Source: an uncultured Bacteroidales bacterium
GTDB lineage: Bacteria; Bacteroidota; Bacteroidia; Bacteroidales; UBA932
Assembly (NCBI GenBank): GCA_900318565.1
Contig: ONLD01000014.1
Coordinates: forward strand, 56,678-94,760
Direction of reading: 5' to 3'
DNA: 38,083 nt
Below, one piece after another: positions 1 through 38,083 of the stretch. The notes beneath the pieces were generated by a model. That model did no database searches. It saw only the letters and a program-made list of their open reading frames with translations, and was not told the origin of the DNA. Position 1 is the first letter of the stretch; each line of letters opens with the position of its first letter. The position numbers and the translations under genes were made by a program.

Positions 1-201
1 CCCGATGCGTATTTCCGCAAAATCAGGCTGTCCCGTAATCGGGCAGAGACTGGTAAACTCCGGGCAGTTGAAACGGACCCAGTAGTCGTGGTCCTGATGG
101 CGGTTCTCGAAAGCTTCGAGCACTTCGGGAGCATAGTTAACCTTATATTCTGTCTTGTTTCCGAGGGACTTCAGGCCCTCTTCTTTGCGGGAATCTTTCA
201 T
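1..201 (-). CDS. queF: NADPH-dependent 7-cyano-7-deazaguanine reductase, 5' part only (QueF)
   Basis: QueF reduces preQ0 to preQ1 in queuosine biosynthesis for tRNA modification, in the cytoplasm. Only the first 67 codons are in the window; the gene runs off the left edge. The visible part contains the family signature [15 protein letters not shown] at residues 47-61. Cys53 matches the nucleophile that forms the thioimide with preQ0, and Asp60 matches the conserved catalytic acid. The ATG at 199-201 is the only sensible start. The gene lies 8 bases after the stop of the thioesterase gene and is probably the last visible member of that minus-strand operon. The signature is diagnostic, so the family call is firm. 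Whether the rest is intact cannot be seen. Confidence 0.93.
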
Positions 202-209
202 AAACAAGT

Positions 210-626
210 TTAATTGGACTGTACACTTGAGAGTATTGCGGTATGGAGTTCCGGGAAGCGGTCCGCGAGCACTACAGGGCGGCCGGCCTCAAGGAAACAA
301 TGAGTGCTGGAAGCCGTGCAGACGATTTTGCCGCCGACTTTCATCGTATAGGAGAAACTTATCTTGAGCTCGCTCATAGAGGCCACCTTGATGGAAATCT
401 CGATGACATCCTTGAAGGTCGTAGTGCGCTTGTAGTTGCATTCTATCGCCATCACCGGCGACACGATGCCCTCCGCCTCCATACGCTCGAAGCCATAGCC
501 AAGCTGGTCCATCCAGTCGATGCGCGCTTCCTCCATAAACCTGATGTAGTTGGAATGGTGGGTCACACCCATACGGTCACACTCATAGTATTTGACCTCG
601 TGGCAGTAGGGCTTGAGTTCGCTCAT
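210..626 (-). CDS. Acyl-CoA thioesterase, YbgC/FadM (4HBT) family
   Basis: This is a 138-residue single hot-dog domain protein of the 4-hydroxybenzoyl-CoA thioesterase family, which hydrolyses acyl-CoA thioesters in the cytoplasm. The N-terminal motif [15 protein letters not shown] (residues 13-27) matches the family active-site loop, with Asp17 as the catalytic residue, and the length is normal. There is no signal peptide. It starts 3 bases after the DUF3575-like gene and ends 8 bases before queF, so co-transcription is likely. In related Bacteroidota such thioesterases often sit in housekeeping clusters; the natural acyl substrate cannot be deduced from the sequence. I chose the ATG at 624-626 because the motif sits at the normal distance from it. 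Confidence 0.85.
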
Positions 627-629
627 ACG

Positions 630-1703
630 CTATTTTTTATTGTAGTGAATCATATAGGTCAGCGTCACCTTGAAAGAGCCCGGATCGGGAAGGCGGCTGT
701 GGATGACGCCTCCGGGAAGAGCTCCGTCGCCAACTAGGTCGTAGCGAGTGAAGTCGCTGATCATCATACCTATATTGCCGGAAAGGTCGAGTCTCCACCA
801 AGGCCCGAATGCCCAGGTGTAACCGCCGCCGATACCGCCTATGATGGCAGTACCCTGAACGCCCTGACCGTTCCAGGCCAGATTGTATTTTCCGGTCGCC
901 ACGGCGGCAGAGAAGAACCATCCCTTATAGACATCGCTTCCCCTGTATTCCCAAGGCTTGAGATAGTAACGTGCGCCAAGGTCGAGACACTGAATCTGCA
1001 TAGCGCGCATACCGTCAGCAGAGCTCCACATAGGAGTGGTAATGCCGATATGGGCACCCCAGTGGCGTCCGATGGGCACTTCGATACCCAGGTTGACCGC
1101 CGTAAGGGCATCGAGGAAGAGGTTGGAAGATATTCCGGCGAGAGCCACGGGGCCGCCGACAACGGCCGGAGGCACGGGTTTGGCCGGCTTCTGGGGTTTC
1201 TCCGGCTTGGCCGGTTTTTCGGGCTTTGCAGGTTTCTCCGGCTTCGCAGGTTTCTCGGGTTTGGCCGGTTTTTCAGGCTTAGCGGGCTTTTCCGGTTTGA
1301 CGGGTTTCTCCGGCTTCGCCGGCTGCTCGGGCTGCTCAGGCTGCTCGGGCTTAACCGGCTGCTCAGGCGTGACGGGCTGCTCTGGTTTTGCAGGCTGTTC
1401 AGGCTTTGCCGGTTGTTCGGGTTTGGCCGGCTTCGCGGGCTGAACGCCCACCACTGGATCCTCGATCTCGTACTTCTTCGGAGGCTGTACCTGAGCGGGG
1501 CTGGGAGGCAGCACCGCATCGTCCATCAAGATCATCAAGTCTTGGGACTCAGTGCCTTTCGCGGGCTCAGGCTGCACAGGCAGGAGCCCCGGGGGCACGT
1601 CCTTCTTAGGCTTCCCTTCCTTATTATTTTGTGCAGAGGCCGGAAAGACTAAAAAAATGGCAGACAAGGCTGCCATTATAACTGCTATTTTGAACTTTGC
1701 CAA
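630..1703 (-). CDS. DUF3575-like outer-membrane protein with long Pro/Lys-rich repeat linker
   Basis: A 357-residue exported protein in three parts. Residues 1-24 form a signal peptide (Lys-rich start, hydrophobic core, ending ASA|Q). Residues about 25-90 are Pro-rich, and 91-177 are a six-residue repeat of the KPEQPA/KPEKPA type. From about residue 185 a beta-rich domain (SSNLFLDALTAVNLGIEVPIG onward, cut into short strands) resembles the DUF3575 family of Bacteroidota outer-membrane proteins and ends in an aromatic/basic YMIHYNKK. The best start is a TTG at 1701-1703, five bases after the upstream stop: it gives a complete n-region, whereas the next ATG (codon 10) would remove the basic residues. 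The repeat resembles a stiff periplasm-spanning spacer, as in TonB, but that is inference. It is co-transcribed with its neighbours. Function is unknown. Confidence 0.75.
   Translation of the reverse strand: MAKFKIAVIMAALSAIFLVFPASAQNNKEGKPKKDVPPGLLPVQPEPAKGTESQDLMILMDDAVLPPSPAQVQPPKKYEIEDPVVGVQPAKPAKPEQPAKPEQPAKPEQPVTPEQPVKPEQPEQPEQPAKPEKPVKPEKPAKPEKPAKPEKPAKPEKPAKPEKPAKPEKPQKPAKPVPPAVVGGPVALAGISSNLFLDALTAVNLGIEVPIGRHWGAHIGITTPMWSSADGMRAMQIQCLDLGARYYLKPWEYRGSDVYKGWFFSAAVATGKYNLAWNGQGVQGTAIIGGIGGGYTWAFGPWWRLDLSGNIGMMISDFTRYDLVGDGALPGGVIHSRLPDPGSFKVTLTYMIHYNKK
1172..1433 (-). repeat. In-gene tandem repeat encoding KPEQPA/KPEKPA
   Basis: About 14 imperfect 18-base units encode the hexapeptide KPE(Q/K)PA inside the DUF3575-like gene. 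The upstream units use Gln (PEQPA) and the downstream units use Lys (PEKPA), so the array has two sub-blocks. DNA copies differ at third positions, which suggests selection on the peptide rather than recent duplication. Such arrays can change length by replication slippage. Confidence 0.85.
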
Positions 1704-1708
1704 AATAC

Positions 1709-2185
1709 CTACTTAAAGCTTACGTTGTTAAGTTCGAAACAGGCGCCTATGCTCTTCACGTCAAGCTGGGGGCAGAGCACGCAGAGCTTGACCTTCGTGA
1801 AGGAATCAGCCTCCTTTGCCACGTTCTTGATGAGGATGTGGCACTTCACGGGAACCTTGGACGGGAACGTCATAGCGCTGTACTGGTCCGTCAGGCTCTT
1901 GTTGGCCACGGAGACCAGGATGCTGCCGAGTTCATAGACGTTGCCGTCATTGTCATATGCGACGGATCCACCCATTCCGGTCTGGTAGATACCACCGACG
2001 AGGTTGACGAGCACCTCGGAAGACGACATATTGGTCACGAGCACCGTGAGTTCGACATCGTATCCTACCAGTCTGGAACTCTTGTACTGAATCTTAAGGT
2101 CCTGGCTGGGGGTGGTGGCTGTGGTCTGGGCAAATGCCATTACACCGAAGAGCAGAGCCGCAATGATGGTGAACAACTTTTTCAT
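1709..2185 (-). CDS. Small secreted protein of unknown function
   Basis: I do not recognise this 158-residue protein. The ATG at 2183-2185 (MKKLFTII) gives a classical signal peptide ending at AFAQ; an in-frame ATG four codons earlier would only lengthen the n-region. The rest has a beta-strand pattern (alternating hydrophobics, for example YDVELTVLVTNMSS and VPVKCHILIKNV), like an immunoglobulin-type or DUF-type periplasmic domain. Two cysteines in KLCVLCPQ and one in GACFEL near the C-terminus could form a disulfide. It is the first gene of a minus-strand operon behind a good TTG...TAAATTTG promoter, and is followed within 5 bases by the DUF3575-like gene, so a joint envelope role is plausible. 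Confidence 0.7.
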   Translation of the reverse strand: MKKLFTIIAALLFGVMAFAQTTATTPSQDLKIQYKSSRLVGYDVELTVLVTNMSSSEVLVNLVGGIYQTGMGGSVAYDNDGNVYELGSILVSVANKSLTDQYSAMTFPSKVPVKCHILIKNVAKEADSFTKVKLCVLCPQLDVKSIGACFELNNVSFK

Positions 2186-2213
2186 ATTTGGGTACACAAT
2201 TCTTAAATTTCGG

Positions 2214-2244
2214 CAAATTTAAATATTCTGTTTTAGAAAAACAA
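2214..2244 (-). promoter_or_regulatory. Bacteroidota-type promoter for the envelope/thioesterase/queF operon
   Basis: Read on the minus strand, TTG at 2244-2242 is followed after 20 bases by TAAATTTG at 2221-2214, matching the TTTG / TAnnTTTG consensus. The expected transcription start near 2208 gives a leader of about 22 bases before the ATG at 2185. Confidence 0.6.
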
Positions 2245-2258
2245 GAACTTTTTACCTC

Positions 2259-2510
2259 TTAGGCATATGAATGCATACCGCCGAGCACAAGGTTCACGCC
2301 AAAGTATGTAAAGAGCACGCACGCAAACGCTACTATGGTATAAACGTGGAATGCCCGGGGCTTCTGAAGGAAACACAGGCTGCCTCCGTGAAGCGCTCCC
2401 GCATATACCAGAAGCGTCACGAGCGCCCAGGTCTCTTTGGGATCCCAGGACCAGTAGCTGCCCCACGAAATATTGGCCCACACGGCTCCGAGGAAGGTGC
2501 CGAAGAGTAA
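2259..2510 (-). pseudogene. 3' remnant of a cytochrome c assembly gene (CcsA/ResC-like)
   Basis: Eighty-odd codons read LLFGTFLGAVWANISWGSYW and continue SWDPKETWAL, the tryptophan-rich haem-handling segment of CcsA/CcmC-type cytochrome c synthetases. They are followed by hydrophobic helices and the typical C-terminal end GGMHSYA. The family is several hundred residues long, so the N-terminal part is missing. Reading upstream, the frame loses similarity at about 2511 and meets a TGA at 2523-2525. At the same point a different gene remnant begins. No start codon with a proper context precedes the fragment. I call it a broken gene; an assembly join is the main alternative. Confidence 0.75.
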
Positions 2511-2701: not shown

Positions 2702-2706
2702 TATAT

Positions 2707-5535: not shown

Positions 5536-5555
5536 ATCTAAAATTATTAATCCTA

Positions 5556-5563: not shown

Positions 5564-5574
5564 CACTTTTTTCG

Positions 5575-5582: not shown

Positions 5583-5589
5583 CGCCATT

Positions 5590-6495: not shown

Positions 6496-7136
6496 GCAAG
6501 AAACTGCGCAATGTCCTCGTTGCCGTCTGCACAGCAACGGCGCTGTGGTTCTATATGTTCAGCCCCTGGACCGGAGGGTGGCCCAATTTCTGGCTCGTAA
6601 TGGCTATGTCGGCCATCATCCTGACCAGCCTGGGTCTCATATTCTCGGGCGGATTCAAGAACCTGCCGAAAATAGAGAAGCCTTTGTTGCAGTCAACCCT
6701 GGGCGTAGTTATCGCATTCGCGCTCTGGGGCATTTTCTGGATTGGAGACAAGGCATCCTCGGCGATGTTCGATTTCGCCCGTCCGGAGGTCAATGCCGTC
6801 TATGCGATGAAAGAGGGATTCTCCCCCGCCGTAATCGCGGTCCTGCTGATCCTGCTTATCGGCCCCGCGGAGGAATTCTTCTGGAGGGGCTTTGTGCAAC
6901 GCAGCCTGGATGACATTTTCAAGGGCAGATACGCCCGCGACCTTTCGTTCATCGCGACCGTTGCAATCTATACCCTCATCCACATCTGGTCATTCAACTT
7001 TATGCTCATTATGGCCGCGCTCGTCGCCGGAGGCGTGTGGGGCCTTATCTACCGGTTCTGTCCCAAGGCGCTGCCCGCTCTGGTGGTCAGCCACGCCATC
7101 TGGGACGCCCTCGTATTTGTAATAATTCCCATATAG
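6492..7136 (+). CDS. CPBP-family intramembrane metalloprotease
   Basis: A 214-residue membrane protein of the CPBP (Abi/Rce1-like) family. The three family motifs are visible: PAEEFFWRGF with Glu127, Glu128 and Arg132; His164 in TLIHIWSFNF; and SHAIWD with His201 and Asp205. These residues form the metal-dependent active site in the membrane plane. Members include CAAX-type prenyl proteases and bacteriocin-immunity proteins; the substrate of this one is unknown. It overlaps the UbiA gene by four bases and is followed after two bases by the GH43 gene. The pairing of a prenyltransferase with an Rce1-related protease is suggestive, but the two may simply share a promoter. Confidence 0.87.
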   Translation: MSKKLRNVLVAVCTATALWFYMFSPWTGGWPNFWLVMAMSAIILTSLGLIFSGGFKNLPKIEKPLLQSTLGVVIAFALWGIFWIGDKASSAMFDFARPEVNAVYAMKEGFSPAVIAVLLILLIGPAEEFFWRGFVQRSLDDIFKGRYARDLSFIATVAIYTLIHIWSFNFMLIMAALVAGGVWGLIYRFCPKALPALVVSHAIWDALVFVIIPI

Positions 7137-7138
7137 CC

Positions 7139-8806
7139 GTGAAACGACTTGCCTCCCTCGCCGTCCTCGCGCTGCTCGCCCTTCCCTGCCGGCCGCAGCC
7201 AAGCTACACCAACCCCATCCTGCACGCCGACTACAGCGACCCGGACGTGTGCCGCGTCGGGGAGGACTACTGGATGACCGCATCTTCGTTCAACTGCCTT
7301 CCCGGGCTTCCCGTGCTGCATTCGCGGGACCTGGTGCACTGGCGGCTCGTCGGCGCCGCGCTGGACAAATACCCCTTCGGGCGGGAGCGCGTGTGCCACG
7401 GTGACGGCGTCTGGGCCCCTTCAATCCGCTTCCACGACGGCTGGTTCTACATTTTCGCGGGCGACCCCGACCGCGGCATCTTTATGGTGCGTACCCAGGA
7501 CCCGGCAGGGCGCTGGGAGGAGCCCGTGTGGGTATGGCGCGGGAAAGGCGCAATCGACCCCTGCCCGCTTTGGGATGAAGACGGCCGGGCCTGGCTTTCC
7601 CACGCCCTGGCAGGCTCGAGGGCCGGCCTCAAGAGCGTCATCCTCGTCGCTCCGATGGCCCCGGACGGCAAATCCCTGCTCGGCCATGCCCGCATCGTGT
7701 ATGACGGACACGACAGCCAGCCCACCATCGAAGGCACAAAGTTCTACAAGAGAGGAGAATACTATTACATTTTCGCTCCGGCCGGAGGTGTCGCGACGGG
7801 ATGGCAGACGGTACTGCGTTCCGCTTCGCCGTACGGCCCCTGGGAAGAGAAGGTGGTGATGTATGCTCCCAAAGGGAGCGAGGCGCGCTGCAACGGACCT
7901 CACCAGGGGGCCTGGGTGCAGACTCCCCAAGGCGGAGACTGGTTCCTGCATTTCCAGGACAAAGGCGCATACGGACGCATTGTGCACCTTCAGCCCCTGG
8001 AATGGGGCAAAGACGGCTGGCCCGTGGCCGGAGCCCGCGGCAGGAAGGGAGGTCCGGGAGTGCCTGTCCACAGCCAGACGGCTCCCTGCGCGTTTTCCGA
8101 AGCCGGCCCGGCGCAGGAAGGTCCCTACGGCATTTCCCTTGACTGGCAGTATCCCGCCGAGCCCCTCCCCTGGTGGCACTCGGCTCTGCCGGACGGAGGC
8201 ATCAGGCTGTACAGCGTGGAGCAGAATCCGGGATACCGCAACCTCTGGGACTGCCCCAACCTGCTGCAGCAGAAATTCGGAGCCGAGTCTTTCTCGGTCA
8301 GCGCCACCCTCGTGTTCCGTCCCAATCCGGTCCTGCGCGGGGAGACGGCCGGATTTGCCGTAATGGGAGAAGATTATGCCGGCCTCAGGCTGCGGGAGAC
8401 TCCCGAAGGCGCTGCGCTGGAGTATTTCAGCTGCTCTGACGCCTCTTCAGGCAGCGCGGAGGAAGTCTTGCCGCTCGCCCTGCTGCCCTGGGCCGGAAAG
8501 GAGCAGAATTTCCCCTACGCATCGGCGGGCGTCAAGGAAGTGCAGTATCCGGCGGTGCGGGAAGCGCGCCTGTGGGTGCGCCTCAGCGTAAAGCCCCGCT
8601 ACGGCAAGGGAGAATGGGTGCCCGATGCTATGTGCAGTTTCTCCTACAGCACCGACGGAGTGCACTTCACCGAAGCCGCGGAGCCTTTCCGGGCCGCTCC
8701 GGGCCGCTGGATAGGGGCTAAATGGGGATTCTTCTGCAACCGCACCAGGCCCAAGAACGACTCCGGCCGGCTGGACGTACTGCAGCTCCGAATAGAGACT
8801 GACTAA
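7139..8806 (+). CDS. GH43 glycosidase, two-domain (arabinofuranosidase/xylosidase type), exported
   Basis: A 555-residue exported glycosidase. The start is the GTG at 7139, two bases after the upstream stop, which gives a signal peptide (MKRLASLAVLALLALPC); the open frame extends upstream but inside the CPBP gene. The N-terminal five-bladed propeller shows the GH43 triad: Asp34 in YSDPD (base), Asp140 in GAIDPCPLWDEDG (pKa modulator) and Glu198 in TIEGTKF (acid). From about residue 330 a beta-sandwich of the LamG/XynB C-terminal type follows (LLQQKFGAESFSV...). Such two-domain GH43 enzymes remove alpha-L-arabinofuranose or beta-xylose from side chains; here arabinan or arabinoxylan attached to pectin is plausible. 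It ends overlapping the convergent lacI-type gene. It contains the only CATG of the window. Confidence 0.88.
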   Translation: MKRLASLAVLALLALPCRPQPSYTNPILHADYSDPDVCRVGEDYWMTASSFNCLPGLPVLHSRDLVHWRLVGAALDKYPFGRERVCHGDGVWAPSIRFHDGWFYIFAGDPDRGIFMVRTQDPAGRWEEPVWVWRGKGAIDPCPLWDEDGRAWLSHALAGSRAGLKSVILVAPMAPDGKSLLGHARIVYDGHDSQPTIEGTKFYKRGEYYYIFAPAGGVATGWQTVLRSASPYGPWEEKVVMYAPKGSEARCNGPHQGAWVQTPQGGDWFLHFQDKGAYGRIVHLQPLEWGKDGWPVAGARGRKGGPGVPVHSQTAPCAFSEAGPAQEGPYGISLDWQYPAEPLPWWHSALPDGGIRLYSVEQNPGYRNLWDCPNLLQQKFGAESFSVSATLVFRPNPVLRGETAGFAVMGEDYAGLRLRETPEGAALEYFSCSDASSGSAEEVLPLALLPWAGKEQNFPYASAGVKEVQYPAVREARLWVRLSVKPRYGKGEWVPDAMCSFSYSTDGVHFTEAAEPFRAAPGRWIGAKWGFFCNRTRPKNDSGRLDVLQLRIETD

Positions 8807-16176: not shown

Positions 16177-19100
16177 ATGAACAGTTTAGCAAAGAAACTA
16201 TTTCTTGCTGTCCTCTGCCTGGGAGCAGCCTGGTCGCTTTCCGCACAGACTACCGTCAAAGGTATCGTGACGGACGAAAGCGGCGAGCCGTTGATTGGTG
16301 CGGGTGTCTTCGTAGAAGGCACCACCATCGGTACGGTGACCGGGCTTGACGGTGACTATGAACTCACCGTGCCGGCGGATGCAGTAAATCTGGTGTTCTC
16401 GTTCATCGGCCTCGCCGACCAGACCGTTCCCATCAACGGAAGGTCCCGGATCGACGTGACCCTTGCCACCGACACCACAGTCCTCGACGAAGTCGTCGTG
16501 GTGGGTTACCAGACAGTCAAGAGGCGCGACCTTCTGGGTTCCGTCTCCTCCGTGAGCAGCGACAAGCTGACGGAGCAGCCCGTGACCAGCGTCAGTCAGG
16601 CCCTTTCCGGGAAGATGGCCGGCGTGTCCGTAGTGACTACCGAAGGCGACCCTGACGCCGACATCAAGATCCGCGTCCGCGGCGGCAGTTCCATCACCCA
16701 GGACAACTCCCCTCTCTACATCGTGGACGGTTTCCCCGTGGAATCCATCAACGACATCCCTTCCTCCGAAATCCAGAGCATCGACGTGCTCAAGGATGCA
16801 TTCTCGACCGCAATCTACGGTAGCCGAGGCGCAAACGGCGTCGTCATCGTGACCACCAAGAGCGCCGAGAAGGGACAGAAGATTTCCGTCAAGGTCAACA
16901 CCTACTACGGCCTCAAGAGAATGGCCAACGCAGGCGCCATCAAGGCAATGGATGCCGAGAACTTCGTAAAGTTCCAGTACGAGCTCGGCTCCATCCGCGG
17001 CGACCTCAGTTCCCACTACACTCCCTACTTCGGAGCTTTCAGCGACATCGACCTCTACACCGGCCATCCCGTCAACAACTGGGTTGACGCAGTGTTCGGA
17101 AATACCGGATCGTCCTTCAGCGCAGACGCTTCCGTGTCCGGCAGCGGCGAAGGATACAACTGGACCCTCGGCTATGCCCATATGGGCGACCAGGCCATTA
17201 TGGCCGGTTCGAACTACAGCCGTGACAACCTCAGCTTCAAGGGCCACTTCAAGACCGGCAAGACCACCAGCATCGATGCCAACATCAGGTATTCCAAGGT
17301 GAACGTGCGCGGATCCGGTGCCAACGGCATCAACGATACCGGCACCACTTCCGGCAACGGCCGTCTCAAACACGCCGTCTCCTACGCCCCCATCCCCGTC
17401 TCTATGTCCATCCAGGGCGCCGACGAGGAGCAGGACTACGGTGACAACGCTCCGCCGCTCCTTTCCGTGAGCGACAACGACTCCAAGCGCATCCGCACCA
17501 CCTGGAACGCCAACGCCGCCTTCAACTGGGAGATTATCGAGAATCTCCGCCTCAAAGTCGAAGGAGGCCTGGAGGATTACCGCCAGGGCGACGACCGCTT
17601 CTATGGTCTGACCACCTATTACGTTGCCAACAACTCCACCGTGAAGAACACCCCTTCGACTCAGCACAAGGAGGCCTTCCGTACCCGTTACCGCAACACC
17701 AACACCCTGAATTACGACTTCTCCAATATCCTCGGAGAGAAGCACAACCTGACGGCCCTCATCGGTGAGGAGCTCACCATCACCAAGAGCAACACCCTGA
17801 CCGATATGATTGACGGCCTGCCCGTGTTCTACGACGCCCAGATGGCCTGGAACTTTATGGCTTCCGGCATCCCCGCATCGTCCAACAACTACTACAGCCC
17901 CGATGACAAGCTGCTTTCCTTCTTCGGAAGGGTCAACTACGACTACGACCACCGCTACTCAGTCGGTGCGACACTCCGTACCGACGGCAGCTCCAAGTTC
18001 GCACGCGGCAACCGCTGGGGATTCTTCCCTTCGGCAGCTGCTTCCTGGACCATTTCCAACGAACCCTGGATGGATGAAGCCCACAACTGGCTCGACCAGC
18101 TCAAGCTCCGTTACAGCTTCGGTACCGCCGGCAACAACAACATCCCTTCGGGACAGCTGCTCAAGCAGTATGCTTCCTCGACGAGTGCCTGGCTGTCGAT
18201 GACCAACAACATCTTCACCGCCGGCAAGGTGCTCAACAATCCCGACCTGACCTGGGAGACCACCTATACGCACAACATAGGTCTGGACTTCAGCTTCTGG
18301 CAGAGCCGCCTGAGCGGTAGCCTCGAGGTGTACCAGAACGACACCAAGGACCTGCTCATCAACTTCCCTATCCCCGGCTCGGGCTACAACACCCAGTACC
18401 AGAACGTGGGTTCCACGCGCAACCGCGGTATCGAGCTCACCATCAATGCCCCTATCATCTCCAAGAAGGACTTCTCGCTGAATTTCAGCGGCAACATCGC
18501 GTACAACAAGAACGTTGTCACCGACCTTGGCGGACTTGACAGCATCACCGCTCAGTCTTACTGGGCATCCACCGAAGTCGGAGATGACTACATCGTGCAG
18601 AAGGGTCAGCCCCTCGGCAATATGTACGGCTATATCAACGACGGAATGTACACCGTCGACGACTTCACCTGGAACGGCTCCAAGTGGGTCCTCAACGAGG
18701 GCGTGGTCGATTGCTCACAGATACTCGGCGACACTTACCTGCGTCCCGGCGCCCCCAAGTTCAAGGACCTCGAGAACGTGCCCGTCTATGACGAGGACGG
18801 CAAAATCACCGGCTACACCACCGACGGAAAGGTGACCGTGGCCGACCGCACCGTCATCGGCAACGCATCTCCCGACTTCACCGGAGGTTTCTCCCTCAAC
18901 GCCTTCTTCAAGGGCTTCGACTTCGGCGCCAACTTCAACTTTATGATAGGCAACCAGGTCTATAACGCCAACAAGGTCGAGTTCACCTCCTCCAGGAAGT
19001 TCTACAACCGCAACCTCATCGATATGATGAACGTCTCCAACCGCTGGACCAGCGTGGACTGGAGCACCGGAGAGCTCATCACCGATGCCGAGACCCTCAA

Positions 19101-19422
19101 GAGCGTCAACGCCGGAAAGACTATGTGGAACCCCGCAATGGGCAACGCAATCTTCAGCGACTGGGCAGTGGAGGATGCTTCCTTCCTGCGTCTGCAGACC
19201 CTCACCCTGGGTTACACCCTTCCCGAGAAGCTTACTGAGAAAGTGCATATGCGCAGGGTCCGTCTCTACGTCACCGGCACCAACCTCTTCTGCCTCACCA
19301 AATACTCCGGTTATGACCCCGAAGTGGATACCCGCCGTGCCACTCCCCTTACCCCGGGCGTGGATTACTCCGCTTATCCCAAGAGCATTGGCTTCGTGGC
19401 CGGTCTGAATCTTACCTTCTAA
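16177..19422 (+). CDS. SusC/RagA-family TonB-dependent outer-membrane transporter
   Basis: A 1081-residue outer-membrane transporter. A signal peptide (residues 1-24, ending SLSAQ) is followed by a carboxypeptidase-regulatory-like domain (TTVKGIVTDESGEPLIGAGV, to about residue 95). Next come a TonB-box-like segment LDEVVVVGYQ, the plug domain with SGKMAGVSV and RVRGGSSITQDNSPLYIVDG, and a 22-strand barrel ending in GFVAGLNLTF with the usual terminal Phe. It imports the oligosaccharides produced by the surface lyases, working with the SusD protein encoded 12 bases downstream. Ligand specificity cannot be read directly; the neighbouring enzymes point to homogalacturonan or rhamnogalacturonan pieces. 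There is no separate promoter that I can see. Confidence 0.97.
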   Translation: MNSLAKKLFLAVLCLGAAWSLSAQTTVKGIVTDESGEPLIGAGVFVEGTTIGTVTGLDGDYELTVPADAVNLVFSFIGLADQTVPINGRSRIDVTLATDTTVLDEVVVVGYQTVKRRDLLGSVSSVSSDKLTEQPVTSVSQALSGKMAGVSVVTTEGDPDADIKIRVRGGSSITQDNSPLYIVDGFPVESINDIPSSEIQSIDVLKDAFSTAIYGSRGANGVVIVTTKSAEKGQKISVKVNTYYGLKRMANAGAIKAMDAENFVKFQYELGSIRGDLSSHYTPYFGAFSDIDLYTGHPVNNWVDAVFGNTGSSFSADASVSGSGEGYNWTLGYAHMGDQAIMAGSNYSRDNLSFKGHFKTGKTTSIDANIRYSKVNVRGSGANGINDTGTTSGNGRLKHAVSYAPIPVSMSIQGADEEQDYGDNAPPLLSVSDNDSKRIRTTWNANAAFNWEIIENLRLKVEGGLEDYRQGDDRFYGLTTYYVANNSTVKNTPSTQHKEAFRTRYRNTNTLNYDFSNILGEKHNLTALIGEELTITKSNTLTDMIDGLPVFYDAQMAWNFMASGIPASSNNYYSPDDKLLSFFGRVNYDYDHRYSVGATLRTDGSSKFARGNRWGFFPSAAASWTISNEPWMDEAHNWLDQLKLRYSFGTAGNNNIPSGQLLKQYASSTSAWLSMTNNIFTAGKVLNNPDLTWETTYTHNIGLDFSFWQSRLSGSLEVYQNDTKDLLINFPIPGSGYNTQYQNVGSTRNRGIELTINAPIISKKDFSLNFSGNIAYNKNVVTDLGGLDSITAQSYWASTEVGDDYIVQKGQPLGNMYGYINDGMYTVDDFTWNGSKWVLNEGVVDCSQILGDTYLRPGAPKFKDLENVPVYDEDGKITGYTTDGKVTVADRTVIGNASPDFTGGFSLNAFFKGFDFGANFNFMIGNQVYNANKVEFTSSRKFYNRNLIDMMNVSNRWTSVDWSTGELITDAETLKSVNAGKTMWNPAMGNAIFSDWAVEDASFLRLQTLTLGYTLPEKLTEKVHMRRVRLYVTGTNLFCLTKYSGYDPEVDTRRATPLTPGVDYSAYPKSIGFVAGLNLTF

Positions 19423-19434
19423 TATGATGGCCAT

Positions 19435-21267
19435 ATGAAAAAGATTATATATATCCTTTCCGCCGCGCTGATTGCGGTATGCGCCTCTTCCTGCGAGAAG
19501 TTCCTGGATTCCGAGTCTCCCTCGACCTTCGATTCGGCGACCGTATTCTCCAACTACAGCCTCGCTGAGAGCCAGATGTTCTCCGCCCTGCAGTCCCTCG
19601 GCGAGACCAATTCCTACCGCGGACGCTACCTCAGCTGGATAGGTCTCAACAGCGACATCGAGTGGTACAACACCTACAAACCCGATGATCAGAAATACCA
19701 GATTGCAGGTTATTCCCAGCTGCCCAACAACAGCCAGCTGAACCTCAACAACGGTCCCTTCGCAATGATGTACGAAGCCATCGAGCGCCTCAACCTCTGT
19801 ATCGAAGGGCTCCAGGCATACGGCAAATGCGAGGAGAACGCCGATATGGCCTCCCTCCTCGGCGAAGCCTTCACCCTCAGGGCGATGATCTACTACGACC
19901 TCATCCGCGGCTGGGGCGACGTCCCAGCCCGCTTCGAGCCCACGACCAGCAGCACCATCTACAAGGCTAAAGACAGCCGCGACGTGGTGTTCAAGCAGAT
20001 TCTCTCCGACCTGGAGGTTGCAATCCCCTATCTGAGCTATCCCGGCAAGACTGCCGTGACTTCGCGCACCGACCGCGTGAACAAGATGTTCGCCCAGGGT
20101 CTTTACGCCCGCATCGCCCTTATGGCCTCCGGATATGCCATCCGTCCCGACGATGGAGCAGTCGGCACCGGTGACCTCGGCACAGTGCGCACCACTTCCG
20201 ATCCTGAGCTGCAGAAGGAGGCTCTCTATCCCAAGGCTCTCGATTATCTGCGTGAAGCCATCAGTTCCGGCACCGCCGGCCTCGAGGATTATGAGACTCT
20301 CTGGAAGAACCAGAGCAACCTCAGCAACCTCACGGCAGGTCCCGGCTACGAGACTCTCTACGTGATTCCTTTCTCTGACGGCCGCGGCCGCTGGAACTTC
20401 ACCTTCGCAGTGCGTTCCGAAGGCTCCTCCTACGCAGGAGGCGCTACCGTTACCCGCGGCGGCGACGCCGGCCCCGTGCCCACAATGTGGTTCCGCTACG
20501 ATCCCAAGGATGTGCGCCGCGACATTACCTGCGTCAACTGGCGCTGGAACGCTTCGGACGAGAAGGAACTTCCCGGCATCCAGAAATGGTATTTCGGCAA
20601 GTATCGCTTCGAATGGATGAAGAACAAGCCTTACACCGGCGGCAATGACGACGGCGTGAAGCCTGCAGTGATGCGCTACTCCGACATCCTCCTTATGGCA
20701 GCCGAAATCGCCAACGAGCTGGGACAGCTCGATGAAGCCAAGAACTACCTCCTGCCCGTGCGCGAGCGTGCCTTCAAGGGCAACGAGACTATGGCTGAAG
20801 ACTATGTCGGCGCCATAGGCAGCAAGGATGCTATGTTCAACGCCATCGTGGACGAAAGGGCCCTGGAGTTCTGCGGCGAAATGACCCGCAAATTCGACCT
20901 CGTGCGCTGGAACCTCCTCAAAGCCAAGATGGATGAGACCATCGCCGAGATGAAGGCCCTGCGCGATATGACCGGCCGCTTCGCCGGCATCAACGGTCTG
21001 GGCGGTGACGTGTACTGCCAGGCGGACGGCAGCGAAATCCGCATCTGGGGCCTCTCCGGCGAGACCACCACGCCTACAGGCAACTGGGAGAAGAAGTCCG
21101 AATACATCAACAAGACCATTGACTCCAAGGGACAGGACACCGGACTGTACGACGCCCTCGTCGAGGGTCTGTACACCGGAGATCCCGAGCGCCATACTTT
21201 CTGGCCTATCTACTATGATTCCATCACGAACAGCCAGAACAATCTCGTAAATGACTATGGCTATTAA
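19435..21267 (+). CDS. SusD/RagB-family glycan-binding lipoprotein
   Basis: A 610-residue surface lipoprotein. The signal ends at CASSC (Cys20) and is followed by EKFLDSESPSTFD, the typical SusD start. The TPR-rich helical core is evident (for example ALQSLGETNSYR, EAFTLRAMIYYDLIRGWGDVP), as is the C-terminal part RALEFCGEMTRKFDLVRWN. SusD proteins cap the SusC barrel and deliver oligosaccharide to it. Length is at the upper end of the family. It lies 12 bases after susC and 12 bases before the beta-helix lipoprotein, forming the usual transport trio. A long reading frame on the opposite strand across this gene is a codon-usage shadow. Confidence 0.96.
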   Translation: MKKIIYILSAALIAVCASSCEKFLDSESPSTFDSATVFSNYSLAESQMFSALQSLGETNSYRGRYLSWIGLNSDIEWYNTYKPDDQKYQIAGYSQLPNNSQLNLNNGPFAMMYEAIERLNLCIEGLQAYGKCEENADMASLLGEAFTLRAMIYYDLIRGWGDVPARFEPTTSSTIYKAKDSRDVVFKQILSDLEVAIPYLSYPGKTAVTSRTDRVNKMFAQGLYARIALMASGYAIRPDDGAVGTGDLGTVRTTSDPELQKEALYPKALDYLREAISSGTAGLEDYETLWKNQSNLSNLTAGPGYETLYVIPFSDGRGRWNFTFAVRSEGSSYAGGATVTRGGDAGPVPTMWFRYDPKDVRRDITCVNWRWNASDEKELPGIQKWYFGKYRFEWMKNKPYTGGNDDGVKPAVMRYSDILLMAAEIANELGQLDEAKNYLLPVRERAFKGNETMAEDYVGAIGSKDAMFNAIVDERALEFCGEMTRKFDLVRWNLLKAKMDETIAEMKALRDMTGRFAGINGLGGDVYCQADGSEIRIWGLSGETTTPTGNWEKKSEYINKTIDSKGQDTGLYDALVEGLYTGDPERHTFWPIYYDSITNSQNNLVNDYGY

Positions 21268-21279
21268 TACCGATGCTTT

Positions 21280-24135
21280 ATGAAATACCGTAATATAGTA
21301 AAATCCGTATTTTTCGCCGTCCTCGCCTTGAGCTCCGCCGGCTGCGTGCAGAAGGAGTTCAACGAGATTACCGAAATGCAGCTCAAGCAGTGCCTCGAGC
21401 CGCAGAACCTCGCGGCGCGCGTCAACAACGCCACCGGCGACGACGTCACCTTCTCCTGGGACGTCAACAAGGACGCACAGTACTACAACTTCGTCGCTTA
21501 TACCGACGAGGCTATGACCACCGTGGCCCTCGAGAACGCCACCCTGGCAGCTTCCGATGTCCCCTACACCGTCAAGCTCCCTGCAGACCAGGAATACTTC
21601 TTCAAGGTCCAGGCTGTCGCCGAAGGCAAGGAAAGCTCGAAATGGGCTGTCTATGACGGTTCCGTCAAGACCTTCGCGGTCAAGGACAACCTCTTCCCCG
21701 TGATTGTCGCCCGCACCGAGAGCAGCATCACCCTCAAATGGGAAGGGGCCGACTTCGCCTCCGACTTCGACCAGGTGACCCACATCACCGCCCGTCCTGT
21801 CGCAGGTGGCAGCAAGGTCGAATACAACCTTACCGACGCTGAGAAGCAGGCCTGCTCCGCTACCGTCAGCGGCCTTGCAGCTTCCACCGAGTATCAGGTC
21901 ACCCTGTTCTACCTCTCCGCTTCCCGCGGCGCCCTTGACGCCTGGACAAGCGCAGAGCAGGGATCTGCCGTGACCGTATCTTCCTCCGCTGAGCTGCTCG
22001 CCATCATCGCCACCGGCGGTGAGGCCTACCTGACCCTTGCCGGCTCGCCTTACGAGATCAGCAACGCCAAGCCCAAGGCCGGCCTCAAGCTCATCGGTGA
22101 GCTTGCAGCCGACGGAAGCAAGCCCGAGGTCATAGGCAAGTTCGAGCTCACCGACGGCCTTGCCGACGGCAGCGAGTTCTACGCCGAGGGCATCAAGTTC
22201 AACGGCGGCGCAGCCCAGTCCCGCATCGTGGAGCACACCGGAGCGGCGCTCAACCTCACCGGCGTGACCTTCAAGAACTGCGAAATCACCAACTATCTCG
22301 CAGGTCTCTTCTACGACAACAACGACAACGTCCTGAAACTCGGCGCCCTCACCTTCGAGACCTGCGACATCTACAACATCGCGGGAAGCGGCGGTGACGC
22401 AGTCGATGTCCGCAAGGCTTGCGAAATCGACAAGATCGTGATGAAGAACAATACCATCTATGACGGTATGCGTACCTTCTTCCGCATCGACGCCGTCGAG
22501 ACCATCAAGATAGGCGAGGTCGATTTCGAGAACAACACCGTGAAGGGCATCGCCGTCATCAACGACGGCAACAACCAGGGCCTCTTCGCCTTCAAGTCCG
22601 CCACCACCCTTACCCTGAAGAACAACCTGTTCCTCTATGAGGACGGCGGCGAGACCGACGAAGCCACCCCGGACAAGTGCCAGCTCATACGCGACAACAG
22701 CGCCATCGTGGTGCCGACGCTCAACGCCTCCGGCAACTACAGCTTCGCACAGGGCAAAGACTTCTTCAAGAAAGTCAGCGCCGCCGAAGCCGGATTCACC
22801 ATTCTCACCGAAGACCCTTGCTACAACTCCAAGGGCGGTTTCTTCCAGCTGTCCAACGCCAACCTCATCGACGCCAAGGTCGGCGCCTCCAAGTGGTGGA
22901 TTTCCTACACCCAGAAGGCTGAAGACCTGACCCAGAACGTGCTCGCAGGAGCCCACACCTGGAACCTCCAGGACGCCAAGCTCTTCGCAGGCGACGTGAC
23001 CGGAAGCCGCGTGCGTGAGGAACTGATGCTCGTGGCCAGCGAGGCCGTACCTATGAACGCCGACGGCGGCATCAACTTCCTGTCCGCCGCTCCGCTCAAC
23101 CGCAAGGGAGTTCCTACCGACGGCTACGTGTCCTTCATCGTGGACACTCCCGGTTCCGTGGACCTGGAGGTCGCCGACAATGAGAACCGCGGCGCCAGCG
23201 TGGTCGTGGGCATTGCAGACGACAACGGATTCCGCGTACTTGGCGGCGCAGTGGCTTCCGAGCAGAACGGCGGCGTGGTCAAGGTAGTGGCGAAGGAAGT
23301 AGCGGGCCAAGGCACCGTGTACATCTATCCTACCGGCCCCATCAGCATCGTCAAGCTCGCCTGGAGCAAGGACGTCCTCGCCGGCAGCAAGGTGCTTCCC
23401 ACCCCTGCAGTGAAAGTGGAGCCCGTGACCCTCACCGAGGGCGACGAGACCGCAGTCACCATCACCTGGGACGCCATCCCCAATGCAGCCGCATACAAGG
23501 TAATCTTCAACAAGAAGGCCTTCGAGGAGCAGACCGAGTGCAGCTTCACCGTCGAGGCAGCCGACATCGCTGCCCTCAAGGCAGGTCTTTACAGCTTCAG
23601 CGTGCAGGCATTCCCTGCCGAGGGAGACATCTACTACCAGAAGTCGGAGCAAGGAACGGCCTCCTTCGCCATCCAGCCTAAGGGCGGCGCCGGCGAAATG
23701 GTCACCGTAGAAAAGGTCTGGGACTTCTCCCAGGCTGACTGGCAGGCCGAATTCGCGAAGGTAGGCGCATCCGGTACCGACATCACGAACTGGAGCCTCA
23801 GCTACGACGACCTCTCCGTCAACTCCAAGAGCAAGAGCAAGTACGGAAGCTCCTACTTCCAGTTCGGCGGCAAGTCCGGAGAGATGGACCGCTACTTCAA
23901 GTTCACCGCTCCCGAGCAGGGCACCCTCAAGATTACCGTGTCCAACACCGGTGACAAGGAAGACCATACCCGTACGGTCGACGTGACGGTCGGCTCCGAT
24001 ACCCAGAGCCAGCCCGGCGGCGTACCGGCCTCCGCCCCTGTGGAACTGGAATACAGCGTGATGGCGGGCGAAGTGGTAATCACCGCCCCCGTGAACGGAC
24101 TGCGATTCTATCGCATCTACTACACCAACCAGTAG
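21280..24135 (+). CDS. SusE-position surface lipoprotein: FnIII + beta-helix (DUF4957/DUF5123-like) + VWDFS module
   Basis: A 951-residue lipoprotein (Cys22 in LSSAGC). Residues about 40-240 hold two FnIII-like domains (FSWDVNKDAQYYNF; ITLKWEG...). Residues about 245-540 form a non-catalytic right-handed beta-helix resembling DUF4957/DUF5123 proteins of pectin loci (ALNLTGVTFKNCEITN, FRIDAVETIKIGEVDFENNT). A further FnIII-like domain follows at about 715-805. Residues 813-951 are the VWDFS module shared with two later proteins of the operon. No lyase Arg/Lys signature is visible in the helix, so binding rather than cleavage is likely. Its position right after susD is that of SusE/F surface glycan-binding proteins. 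Domain names are from memory of the families; borders are approximate. Confidence 0.78.
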   Translation: MKYRNIVKSVFFAVLALSSAGCVQKEFNEITEMQLKQCLEPQNLAARVNNATGDDVTFSWDVNKDAQYYNFVAYTDEAMTTVALENATLAASDVPYTVKLPADQEYFFKVQAVAEGKESSKWAVYDGSVKTFAVKDNLFPVIVARTESSITLKWEGADFASDFDQVTHITARPVAGGSKVEYNLTDAEKQACSATVSGLAASTEYQVTLFYLSASRGALDAWTSAEQGSAVTVSSSAELLAIIATGGEAYLTLAGSPYEISNAKPKAGLKLIGELAADGSKPEVIGKFELTDGLADGSEFYAEGIKFNGGAAQSRIVEHTGAALNLTGVTFKNCEITNYLAGLFYDNNDNVLKLGALTFETCDIYNIAGSGGDAVDVRKACEIDKIVMKNNTIYDGMRTFFRIDAVETIKIGEVDFENNTVKGIAVINDGNNQGLFAFKSATTLTLKNNLFLYEDGGETDEATPDKCQLIRDNSAIVVPTLNASGNYSFAQGKDFFKKVSAAEAGFTILTEDPCYNSKGGFFQLSNANLIDAKVGASKWWISYTQKAEDLTQNVLAGAHTWNLQDAKLFAGDVTGSRVREELMLVASEAVPMNADGGINFLSAAPLNRKGVPTDGYVSFIVDTPGSVDLEVADNENRGASVVVGIADDNGFRVLGGAVASEQNGGVVKVVAKEVAGQGTVYIYPTGPISIVKLAWSKDVLAGSKVLPTPAVKVEPVTLTEGDETAVTITWDAIPNAAAYKVIFNKKAFEEQTECSFTVEAADIAALKAGLYSFSVQAFPAEGDIYYQKSEQGTASFAIQPKGGAGEMVTVEKVWDFSQADWQAEFAKVGASGTDITNWSLSYDDLSVNSKSKSKYGSSYFQFGGKSGEMDRYFKFTAPEQGTLKITVSNTGDKEDHTRTVDVTVGSDTQSQPGGVPASAPVELEYSVMAGEVVITAPVNGLRFYRIYYTNQ

Positions 24136-24148
24136 TATCATACTTTGG

Positions 24149-33512: not shown

Positions 33513-33518
33513 GCGGCA

Positions 33519-34967: not shown

Positions 34968-34968
34968 A

Positions 34969-36729
34969 ATGAAGCGGCTTTTTTCAGTAGCAATCACGCT
35001 TACTGCGGCACTGGGCCTGGCGGCCTGCGGCGGCACGTCCGGGACCGATACTACCACTCCCGACGCTGCCCCCGCGACGCCGACGGGCCTGGTGCTCACA
35101 GGCGCGGAGCAGACCTCCCTGAGTTTCAGCTGGAACGCCTCGGCCGGCGCGGACAGCTACAAGTGGCGTCTCGTCAAGGGCGTCACCGCAGCGGCTGAAG
35201 GGTCTGTCCCGCAGACCTCCGTGACCATTCCAGGCCTGGAAGCCGGGACCGAGTACACCTTCTCAGTGCGTGCCGTCTCGGCCGCAGGGATGTCGGTGTG
35301 GAGCAACCTCGGCGCCTCGACGCAGAAAGCCCCGGCCCCCGAGCCGCAGCCCGGCGGGAAAGTCCAGTGCACGGACGCTCCGATAGTCGTGGGGTATTCC
35401 GGCACTCCGGTGCTGGGCAAGTCGGGCCTGATACGCGTCCTCGACTCCAAAGGCAGCGAGGTGGACAGGATAGACCTCTCCGACATCGCCACCGTGGACC
35501 TGCTTCCCGACGGCACTATGATTCCCAAGGGAGCCGACGCCGACAACGGCAAGATAGCCATCGGCAACGATTACGTCTTCAACAGCTTTATGGACGCGCT
35601 GCACAGCTCCAACTACAGAGCGGTGCACTACACTCCCCTGCGCATCAACGGCAACACGCTCGAGATAAAACTACACAACGAGGCTCTTGATTTCGGCGCC
35701 GCCTACACGGTTAAGATCGACGATGCCGTGGCCGGTATGCCGGCGGAGGACATAAGTTTCACGACCAAGGCCGCTCCGGCCGACGAAGCGACCATACGGG
35801 TAGCCGCTGACGGTTCCGCCGACTTCTGCACAGTACAGGGCGCATTGAGCTATGTATCCGCCAAGATCAAGAAAGACGCGCCCGTGACCATTGAAATCGC
35901 AAACGGGACTTACCGGGAACTGCTTTTCCTCCGCAACAAGAACAACGTGACGCTGAAAGGGGCTTCCCGCGAGGGCACGGTCATCGCCTACCCCAACAAC
36001 GACAGCTACGAGACCGGCTCCGGCGCTTCGCTAAGTTCGAAGCCGCGTGCGGGCGCCTCCATCGGCAAGTCCGGCGGGCGTTGCCTCTTCCTTGTCGAGA
36101 GCTGCGACAATCTTGTCATAGAGGGACTTACCATCGAAAACACTTATTCCATTCCCAGCCACAAAGGCCAGGCCGAGACAATCTACTTCAATGCCGACGG
36201 CAAGCGCCTCACCATCGGAGACTGCGACCTGCTCTCCTGGCAGGACACTTTCCTCTGCAAGGGCAAAGTGTGGGTGCACGATTCCCTCATCGCGGGACAC
36301 GTGGACTTCATCTGGGGCTATCCGGAAGCGTGTCTTTTCGAGAACTGTGAAATCCGCTCCCGCGCCGGCGGCTACATCGTGCAGGCCCGCATCAACAACG
36401 CGGCAGACAAGGGATTCGTGTTCCTTGGCTGCACCCTGACCGCAGAGAGCGGCGTCAAAGACGGAAGCGTGTATCTCGCCCGCAGCGGCGGCGACAGCAG
36501 CAAATGGGACAACGTGACCTACGTCAATTGCAAGATGTCCTCCGCCATCGCTCCTGCCGGCTGGTTCAGCAACCCGGCGCCGAATCCGGCATCGCCGAGC
36601 GCCGTTTCAGGCTGGAAAGAGTTCGGCACCACAGGCGCCTCCACTGCCCAGCGCAGTACGCAAGGCCGCCTGCTCACGGCCGAAGAAGCAGCTTCTTACA
36701 GCAGCAAGCAGGCGGTCCTGGGATGGTGA
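34969..36729 (+). CDS. Pectin methylesterase CE8 with N-terminal FnIII domain, lipoprotein
   Basis: A 586-residue lipoprotein (Cys20 in GLAACGG). Residues about 36-120 are an FnIII domain close in style to that of the PL1 lyase at 14301. A beta-rich domain spans about 132-268, and a CE8 beta-helix about 274-580. Active-site residues are Gln401 (GQAETIYF), Gln425 and Asp426 (SWQDTF), Asp446 (GHVDFIWG) and Arg505. The last lies in VYLARSGG instead of the usual YLGRPW, so the Trp that follows Arg in plant-type enzymes is missing; this variant occurs in some Bacteroidota CE8 proteins as far as I recall. It is the last gene of the operon, ending one base from the convergent kduI stop. Confidence 0.9.
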   Translation: MKRLFSVAITLTAALGLAACGGTSGTDTTTPDAAPATPTGLVLTGAEQTSLSFSWNASAGADSYKWRLVKGVTAAAEGSVPQTSVTIPGLEAGTEYTFSVRAVSAAGMSVWSNLGASTQKAPAPEPQPGGKVQCTDAPIVVGYSGTPVLGKSGLIRVLDSKGSEVDRIDLSDIATVDLLPDGTMIPKGADADNGKIAIGNDYVFNSFMDALHSSNYRAVHYTPLRINGNTLEIKLHNEALDFGAAYTVKIDDAVAGMPAEDISFTTKAAPADEATIRVAADGSADFCTVQGALSYVSAKIKKDAPVTIEIANGTYRELLFLRNKNNVTLKGASREGTVIAYPNNDSYETGSGASLSSKPRAGASIGKSGGRCLFLVESCDNLVIEGLTIENTYSIPSHKGQAETIYFNADGKRLTIGDCDLLSWQDTFLCKGKVWVHDSLIAGHVDFIWGYPEACLFENCEIRSRAGGYIVQARINNAADKGFVFLGCTLTAESGVKDGSVYLARSGGDSSKWDNVTYVNCKMSSAIAPAGWFSNPAPNPASPSAVSGWKEFGTTGASTAQRSTQGRLLTAEEAASYSSKQAVLGW

Positions 36730-36730
36730 T

Positions 36731-37651
36731 TTACCGCATTTCGGTGTAGGGCAGCTTGTCCATATCGCCGTAGTCCAGGTTCTCACCTGCCATACCCCAG
36801 ATAAACATATAGTTCGAGGTACCCGCGGCGGCGTGGATACTCCATTCAGGGCTCATAACGGCCTGCTCATTGGCAAGCCATATGAGCCTTTCCTGTTTGG
36901 GCTCGCCCATCAGGTGGCATATCATATTGCCCTCAGTCACATTGAAATAGAAGTAGGCCTCGATGCGGCGGGAATGCGTGTGGGCGGGCATAGTGTTCCA
37001 CACGCTGCCGGGCTTCAGCTCGGTCAGGCCCATCTGCAGCTGGCAGGGTCCCTCCTGGAGCACGTTGCCGACGATGAGCTGGTTGATGACGCGGTCGTTG
37101 CTGTCTTCCATCTTGCCGGCGGCGAAGGAATTGGCCTTGATGGAGCCCTTGCGGCCGTCAATGGTGATGAGCTGGGTCTTGTAGGCTTTGTGGGCCGTGG
37201 CGGAATTGATGTAGAACTTGGCGGGGCACTTGGGGTCCTTGCTGCGGAACTCCACGTTCTCGCCCCCCCTGCCCACATAGAGAGCGTCCTTGAACTTGAG
37301 GGTGTACTCCTTTCCATCGACGCTGACGATACCCTCGCCGCCGATGTTGATGACGCCCAGTTCCCTGGAATACAGGAAGTAAGGAGCTTTAAGAGGGTCG
37401 ATGGTCTCGAGCTTCAGGGGCTTTGTCGCGGGCACGGCGCCGCCGAAAATAAAGCGGTCGTAAAGCGAATAAGTGAGCCTGATTTCATCCGGTACCATCA
37501 CCTCGCTCATCATAAAGCGGGCACGGAGGGTCTCGGTGTCATAGTGCTTGACATCCTCGGGATGGCAGGCGGTCTGGATGGTGTACTTGGTCTGTGCGTT
37601 CATTGCAATGCTTGCGAGCAGCATAGCTGCCATTATGGTTAATCTCTTCAT
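36731..37651 (-). CDS. kduI: 5-keto-4-deoxyuronate isomerase with signal peptide (KduI, predicted periplasmic)
   Basis: KduI converts 5-keto-4-deoxyuronate, which forms from the unsaturated uronate released by GH105, to 3-deoxy-D-glycero-2,5-hexodiulosonate. All metal ligands of the cupin are present: His224 and His226 in MPAHTHSRR, Glu231 in IEAYFYF and His273 in SIHAAAGT. The N-terminus [20 protein letters not shown] is a Sec signal peptide placed before the normal KduI start ([15 protein letters not shown]). No start codon lies between the signal and the conserved region, so a cytosolic form from this gene is unlikely. The family is classically cytoplasmic and about 278 residues; here the mature length is about 286. 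It begins 2 bases after the IIC gene. Confidence 0.92.
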
Positions 37652-37653
37652 TT

Positions 37654-38083
37654 TTATTTGTTTTCAAAGGATGCTTTGATGATGCGGCGGCGGTTGATGA
37701 CCGCCATCACGGTAGTGCCTGCAACAAGGATGCCGCTGCCTATCCACTTGAAGTCGTGGACCAGGTGGAATATGACCCAGGAGAAGATGCTGGACGCGAA
37801 GTCCAGGCTGCCGCCCTGGAAGCCCTCGGGAATCGCCACTGCGGCGTCTCCGGTGCGGGCGTGAACGTCCTGGGCCGCGAGAGTGAACCAGGGCGCGAGG
37901 TCGGTCACGAAATACAGGCCGACCACAAGGGCCACGAGTCCCACGATGAAGGTCTTGACCACGTTGCCCTTGGTTATGGGCAGCACGGCCGGGAACACGT
38001 AGAACATACCTGCGAGCGAGGCCAGGGGCAGGAACTCATTGCCGGGAAGCACCACGGAGAGCAGCAGGGTCACGGGGATGAGG
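37654..38083 (-). CDS. PTS galactitol-type IIC permease (GatC/SgcC-like), 3' part only
   Basis: About 143 C-terminal residues of a membrane protein are visible; the frame is open through the right edge ([17 protein letters not shown] upstream of an internal GTG). The pattern [55 protein letters not shown] resembles the C-terminus of galactitol-type IIC proteins. The end IINRRRII-like basic tail suggests a cytoplasmic C-terminus. Bacteroidales generally lack a full sugar PTS, and no IIA or IIB is visible here, so it may act as a secondary carrier or channel. It is tightly linked to kduI (2 bases), which suggests a deoxyketouronate as substrate. The family call rests on a partial sequence. Confidence 0.72.

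Follow-up and report, generated by a model that had tools for sequence, protein, structure and literature searches.

The palindrome CATG is almost absent from a 38,083-nucleotide stretch of the genome of an uncultured Bacteroidales bacterium (this whole stretch is called the window here), and the closest described phenomenon is the avoidance of restriction sites. In the part of the survey by Rusinov et al. (2015; PMC4687349) on which we draw, orthodox Type II restriction-modification (R-M) systems cause avoidance of their site in about half of cases, and documented avoidance, including that left behind by lost systems, is almost confined to this type. Among control site-genome pairs 3.9% were avoided as well, and many of these may trace lost systems. 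The same part of that survey states that site reduction needs many generations and gives no tempo like that of the sister pair described below. The present case is avoidance of this known kind: one short palindrome is scarce and most others are normal, the cognate system was not found here and a candidate for it is found in some relatives. What is unusual is its completeness, its recurrence within one genus and its tempo. Unlike the cases of Rusinov et al., the depletion outside clusters is near-complete (36 sites of about 4,060 expected), it recurs in 31 of 200 genomes, and in a sister lineage the purge took place within about 10% divergence.

The described systems closest to the candidates are NlaIII and IceA1-HpyIM of Helicobacter pylori. 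IceA1 is 52% identical to NlaIII, and hpyIM is termed CATG-specific in a title cited in the same source (PMC2749054, excerpted). Two congeners of the window's genome, G122 and G185, both CATG-depleted, resemble these systems in carrying an ICEA-family gene with an adjacent D12 methyltransferase gene; they differ from them in a second methyltransferase, of the N6_N4 type, at ICEA, and the window's genome differs in having no match. Resemblance to NlaIII is not a requirement for a CATG system: the endonuclease of UpaP162, a Type II system of Ureaplasma parvum with this site, matched no known one in the authors' search, according to the excerpted text of PMC6191088. Unlike the genome described here, the host of UpaP162 retains 1,450 CATG motifs. 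Among the literature matches listed, titles and abstract openings report no CATG depletion in this genus. We put the probability at about 0.7 that the chromosome was purged by selection from a CATG-specific Type II R-M system which was recently lost or is unassembled.

CATG in the window and in the genome

The window contains a single CATG, found exactly where the preliminary description of this DNA had placed it, in a GH43 gene:

1..38083, no strand assigned: CATG-purged stretch, with CATG 1 vs 133-140 expected, CTAG 2 vs 38 and GATC 46 vs 133
7685..7688, plus strand: sole CATG of the window, read as the codons CAT GCC (His-Ala)
7037..8806, plus strand: GH43 gene holding the sole CATG, an open reading frame matching Glyco_hydro_43 (E 6.7e-66)

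Shuffles that preserve dinucleotides gave a mean of 138.77 sites (standard deviation 10.15) and the trinucleotide-based expectation is 132.6, which agrees with the figure of about 140 given earlier for a random sequence. The window lies in contig C48 of a 2.31-Mb assembly (G000) of 104 contigs that is 96.5% complete, with about 3.5% of the genome absent. From it we sampled 81 stretches including the window, 1,282,938 bases (12,594 of them N) or about 55% of the genome, and counted 148 CATG against 4,200 expected (0.035). The genome-wide count named in the preliminary description as a refuting test was thus run on this sample and brought no refutation.

The remaining sites are clumped. By a cluster rule set after seeing the data (at least three sites, gaps below 3 kb), 112 of the 148 fall into 15 clusters spanning 41 kb, and the 1.23 Mb outside them hold 36 CATG against about 4,060 expected. 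No CATG at all occurs in 48 of the 81 stretches, five masked stretches included, or in 860 of the 907 genes called with our own codon model. The CATG depletion of the chromosome is real, strong and, outside the clusters, near-complete.

Palindromes had been described as generally spared, with GATC, GTAC, TGCA, GGCC and TCGA all plentiful. For four of them this holds in the window (GTAC 0.88, TGCA 0.97, GGCC 0.83 and TCGA 1.18 of the trinucleotide expectation), but GATC is depleted (46 vs 133.4), and CTAG, which had gone unmentioned, is nearly absent (2 vs 38.1). In the sampled genome CTAG stands at 181 vs 1,514, GATC at 1,839 vs 5,096 (0.36), GTAC at 0.87 and TGCA at 0.88. General palindrome avoidance was rejected as a cause: in the window only CATG, CTAG and GATC are below 0.5 of the trinucleotide expectation, low CTAG is widespread in the genus, and G000 has a DpnII system, described below. 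With regard to CTAG, 16 of 51 stretches of at least 8 kb from across the genus, counting only those with at least 20 sites expected, are under 0.25 of expectation.

Selection acts on the DNA word

The bias in the codon before Met that had been noted in the window holds in the sampled genome. Among C- or T-ending codons, 66 of 3,693 end in C before ATG, compared to 82.7% before other A-starting codons. Likewise, His is encoded by CAT before G in 23 of 1,938 cases (1.2%, vs 38.5% elsewhere), and NCA stands before TG in 17 of 2,147 (vs 14.4% before other T). In non-depleted relatives the same three codon frames (C/ATG, CAT/G and NCA/TG, the slash marking the codon boundary) give 72.8, 37.1 and 23.2%, in a set chosen post hoc that omits L029, L036, L046, L048, L050, L091 and L114 as depleted or masked.

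Strictly non-coding DNA outside clusters and contig ends contains no CATG, against 14.2 expected in 13.9 kb; the unfiltered count, with clusters and contig ends included, is 11 vs 43.5. Contig C30 begins with a fragment of a 16S rRNA gene (L135:1-92) that retains one CATG, in a stretch that we take to be widely conserved. Synonymous choices in the three codon frames and the non-coding DNA agree, which shows that selection targets the DNA word and not the protein, as had been proposed. The equilibrium ratio in G000 gives a scaled selection of about 7, in an estimate that omits genes with at least two CATGs, a choice made after seeing the data.

A sister lineage lost all ancestral CATGs within about 10% divergence

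The tempo of the purge was obtained from a pair of sister genomes, the isolate RGIG9677 from yak omasum (L240; FtsA identical to that of congener G063) and RUG13810 (L237; FtsA identical to that of G023), whose sequences agree at 89.2% of 21,370 aligned bases. L240 has 0 CATG vs 82 expected and L237 has 67 vs 98. None of the 66 CATGs of L237 in the ungapped alignment is kept in L240, whereas eleven other words keep 54-82%. When polarised with the outgroups L247 or L242, 0 of 43 ancestral CATGs are kept, compared to 63-94% for sixteen control words. The restriction system that had been predicted as long-standing need not be so, because the sister lineage purged 43 of 43 sites over about 10% nucleotide divergence.

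The way in which the sites were lost depends on the frame. At the 54 C/ATG sites the products were TATG (39), GATG (6), AATG (4) and others (5), at the six CAT/G sites CACG in five cases, and at the four xCA/TG sites CCTG in three; the two non-coding CATGs were both lost. Both amino acids remained unchanged in 55 of the 64 coding exits, and these synonymous exits exclude a protein-level cause. With codon pairs that include an amino-acid change left aside, synonymous C was kept at 0 of 48 positions before ATG vs 706 of 792 before other A codons, and at ancestral sites only at 0 of 34 vs 587 of 645. CATG loss was at least 26-fold faster (95% bound, ancestral subset), which by simple population genetics would correspond to scaled selection of this magnitude in the L240 lineage.

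Depletion recurs within the genus

We surveyed 200 genomes of the genus, including that of the window, by comparing counts of CATG preceded and followed by two G/C with those of the reversed word GTAC, a ratio in which codon use is uncorrected and GTAC itself is variable. The median ratio is 1.28. With a cut of 0.35, set after seeing the data, 31 of the 200 genomes are depleted and 169 lie above it, six of them between 0.35 and 0.6. The lowest ratio of all is that of the window's genome (0.04; 25 vs 631).

Relatives had been proposed as a check, and depletion, present in these 31 genomes, does not extend to the closest sampled ones. FtsA was matched in 196 of the 200 genomes; the nearest to G000, G169 (81% identical), is not depleted, and among the 12 genomes with an FtsA identity of at least 70% only G063 is. 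In the closest named relatives of G000, CATG counts are 93 vs 112 expected and 74 vs 108. Compared to the closest named relatives, which are 79-80% identical, G000 has kept 0 of 77, 0 of 56 and 0 of 35 CATGs, and 35 of 70, 37 of 67 and 20 of 35 TGCA. In an FtsA tree of 48 rows (15 of 63 were dropped as identical, and L096 was excluded beforehand for its fused frame), the five depleted rows require five changes, a count that does not separate gains from losses; in one of them, G081, the depletion across the genome is no more than moderate (0.38). CATG depletion is therefore a species-level trait that appears repeatedly in separate species.

The FtsA search returned 34 named loci, mostly Bacteroidales assemblies, which come from ruminant guts where the title states a source; the closest known relatives of G000 are rumen inhabitants. 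Since the FtsA of congener G191 is identical to that of Candidatus Cryptobacteroides avistercoris (L264), the genus is, judging from this sequence, very probably Cryptobacteroides. Different species purge different words: congener G010 (L038, 15.5 kb) has ACGT 3 vs 46 and AGCT 3 vs 33.

Resident restriction systems and imported DNA

G000 has one D12 and one N6_N4 methyltransferase match, both adjoining a DpnII endonuclease on contig C32. Profile matches gave the following adjacent genes, and the same island encodes a prokaryotic Argonaute and a DUF3987/PriCT_2 protein:

L012:6170-7051: N6_N4 methyltransferase
L012:7057-7914: DpnII endonuclease
L012:7917-8834: Dam-type methyltransferase
L012:2489-4579: prokaryotic Argonaute (PADLOC pAgo, E 1.5e-209)

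These matches indicate that G000 carries the genes of a DpnII (GATC) R-M system. The one C5 methyltransferase lies beside an EcoRII-N/EcoRII-C endonuclease and Vsr on contig C66 (L179), which points to an EcoRII-type R-M system; CCWGG is not avoided in G000 (0.96-1.00). Scanning the sampled 1.27 Mb for motifs revealed no further clear DNA methyltransferase; the other hits were judged by eye, and two of them resemble RsmD and PrmC. A CATG methyltransferase, for which the preliminary description had advised to look, was not among the D12, N6_N4 and C5 matches, all of which belong to the DpnII and EcoRII-type systems.

Mobile elements had been suggested as a further check, and they do not share the depletion. 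The C32 island contains 19 CATGs between positions 2,669 and 14,602 of the contig; a further one lies at position 62, the segment from 14.6 to 19.2 kb is free of them, and the whole contig has 20 vs 56.6 expected. The EcoRII locus has 7 vs 12.6. Twenty-four genes hold at least two CATGs. Thirteen of their proteins were scanned: eight are products of transposase, AbiE, DpnII-island or Argonaute genes, which thus retain CATG, and the remaining five are DcuA/B, an acyltransferase, a histidine kinase, a DUF3575 protein and one without match. Several CATG-rich genes sit at contig ends, where misbinning is possible.

Neither resident system qualifies as the cause of the purge. The DpnII island carries its own CATGs, and G005 and G013, with DpnII 95 and 96% identical, have normal CATG counts; the C5 enzyme, of EcoRII type, neighbours EcoRII and Vsr. 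The order of events would have been the purge of CATG, then DpnII with partial loss of GATC, then EcoRII without effect. Within the window, CGATCG (0 vs 16.5 expected) and AGATCT (0 vs 7.8) are missing, and flanking bases may govern GATC loss. GATC counts in two named relatives are 7 vs 68 (L262) and 0 vs 27 (L259).

Two other features of the window are the following:

16177..21267, plus strand: SusC/SusD-type pair of a pectin-degradation cluster, not part of the purge mechanism
18715..24141, minus strand: open frame of 1,808 amino acids opposite SusD and adjacent genes, probably a by-product of codon bias

Candidate CATG cassettes in congeners

A genome-wide search for ICEA gave no match in G000 or in any of 14 control genomes, while the same search finds G122 and G185. 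These are the only two of the 200 genomes with ICEA, and both are depleted (Fisher p 0.023). A close D12 partner occurs in four of the 200, three of which are depleted (Fisher p 0.012). By homology to NlaIII and IceA1-HpyIM, ICEA and its D12 are predicted to read CATG. The annotation 'ulcer associated adenine specific DNA methyltransferase' is given to phage relatives that share 36-45% identity with this D12. Searches for relatives of ICEA gave no match in phages or in solved structures, none was confirmed in viral contigs, and plasmids gave one 32% match; in the viral contigs, SusC gave 0 loci and DpnII 1 locus.

In G122 and G185, ICEA abuts or overlaps the N6_N4-type methyltransferase gene, and the D12 gene lies on the opposite side; the G122 cassette is split over two contigs. 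The depleted genome G153 has the same methyltransferase pair (N6_N4 74% identical to that of G122, D12 67% identical to that of G185), with another gene in the ICEA slot:

L072:239-1507: gene of 422 amino acids, between the methyltransferases, with L222:1501-2289

The product shows no BLASTP similarity to ICEA (E 0.07) and no PADLOC match, and its Pfam matches, to RE_Alw26IDE and EVE, all lie below threshold. By eye it has a PD-(D/E)XK-like stretch, and it is a candidate for a new CATG endonuclease. G119, with an intermediate ratio (0.56), has the D12 gene alone: in a 4-kb locus none of the adjacent genes is a partner of this kind. The arrangements in G185/G122, G153 and G119 look like turnover stages of one cassette. 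Tentatively, and with rather low confidence, we consider that the genus may have been swept repeatedly by CATG-reading cassettes with an interchangeable or unrecognised endonuclease, each of which would strip the chromosome within about 10% divergence and then vanish. In most depleted species no such endonuclease was recognised.

A solitary methyltransferase of 446 amino acids in G063 was rejected as the agent, as among the 200 genomes a strong match occurs only in G063 itself and two weak ones elsewhere. Its gene (L225:679-2019) encodes a TSPPY motif and lies between WecB-like and nitroreductase-like genes (names given by eye), in a locus with 8 CATG vs 19.6 expected.

What removed CATG

In the reading that we prefer, a CATG-specific Type II R-M system, NlaIII/IceA-like or a same-site enzyme, would have lived in the lineage until recently or would persist unassembled. 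At any lapse of methylation each CATG could be cut by the cell's own enzyme, and any synonymous change that removes the site would be favoured; with such changes favoured, sites would exit via whichever codon position is free. The restriction system proposed in the preliminary description is still the most likely agent, but no CATG enzyme was found in G000.

Several observations weigh against this reading. Genome-wide searches of G000 for ICEA, D12, N6_N4 and C5 (N6_Mtase, Eco57I and TaqI-type were not searched) revealed no CATG system. Moreover, none of the methyltransferase classes is enriched in the depleted genomes. D12 is found in 6 of 31 vs 7 of 31 controls, N6_N4 in 15 of 31 of both (12 and 12 over the cut-off) and C5 in 7 of 31 vs 44 of the 169 others; the 31 controls for D12 and N6_N4 were hand-picked after seeing the data and are on the whole more complete than the depleted genomes, which favours matches in the controls. 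Therefore, the systems would have to be lost, unassembled or of a class outside those searched. Any loss would also have to be very recent, given that the imported DpnII island keeps its CATGs and that hardly any have reappeared in the rest of the chromosome. Finally, H. pylori lists CATG (HpyIP), yet in the excerpted text of PMC3849833 its CATG has an observed/expected ratio of 1.25 by base composition and is not avoided. Because H. pylori and U. parvum retain CATG, a CATG system alone guarantees no purge.

That no tested methyltransferase class tracks depletion, and that 28 of the 31 depleted genomes lack a match of >60% identity to the NlaIII-type D12, would also fit a CATG-targeting agent other than methylation-based restriction, such as an unrecognised nuclease or a replication-linked process. 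We consider such an agent unlikely, since the ICEA-bearing genomes are depleted, and since the chromosome of G000 harbours the 16S site and, within 12 kb, the 19 CATGs of the island, sites that would scarcely survive an unprotected cutter. An unprotected CATG cutter that is active in G000 at present would be hard to reconcile with these intact sites.

Far less probable is a removal of the word by mutation pressure without selection, through deamination of methylated C at CATG or Vsr-like repair. It is true that TATG is what most of the lost sites of the sister pair became (39 of 66) and that G000 has a C5 methyltransferase and Vsr, but that enzyme belongs to the EcoRII-type system, and neither the His exits from CAT to CAC (5 of 6) nor those from xCA/TG to CCTG (3 of 4) are possible by deamination. 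These exits refute single-base chemistry as the sole cause, and the rarity of CAT before G in G000 (1.2% vs 38.5% elsewhere) argues the same way. CATA, the other deamination product, was not seen in gene orientation, although it would mostly change the protein. We give equally little credence to avoidance at the RNA level, for instance by an mRNA interferase that cuts CAUG. As CATG is palindromic, coding data alone do not separate RNA from DNA; however, filtered non-coding DNA, part of which may be transcribed, has 0 CATG vs 14.2, and in the sister pair neither non-coding site survived. Least probable of all is that low CATG was inherited genus-wide or arose as an assembly artefact. CTAG, another palindrome, is low across the genus, but 169 of the 200 genomes are above the depletion cut, the closest named relatives hold most of their CATG (93 of 112 and 74 of 108), the same contigs show no shortage of GTAC, TGCA or TCGA, and the sister comparison refutes it.

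Significance

Whether purges follow resident, lost or mobile systems is a question that can be addressed with closed genomes of the depleted species. The CATG-free background acts as a stain, in which later imports are recognisable by their CATGs. If the genus was indeed swept repeatedly by CATG-reading cassettes, each sweep would leave a CATG-free chromosome as its record and expose later imports in this way. Restriction-site avoidance is usually taken as a slow and partial bias; the sister pair provides a polarised clock, by which host-directed selection by a defence system becomes measurable from natural genomes. If a restriction enzyme is behind it, as is probable, the purge is a record that can be dated and that shows the speed at which enzymes of this kind alter a genome.

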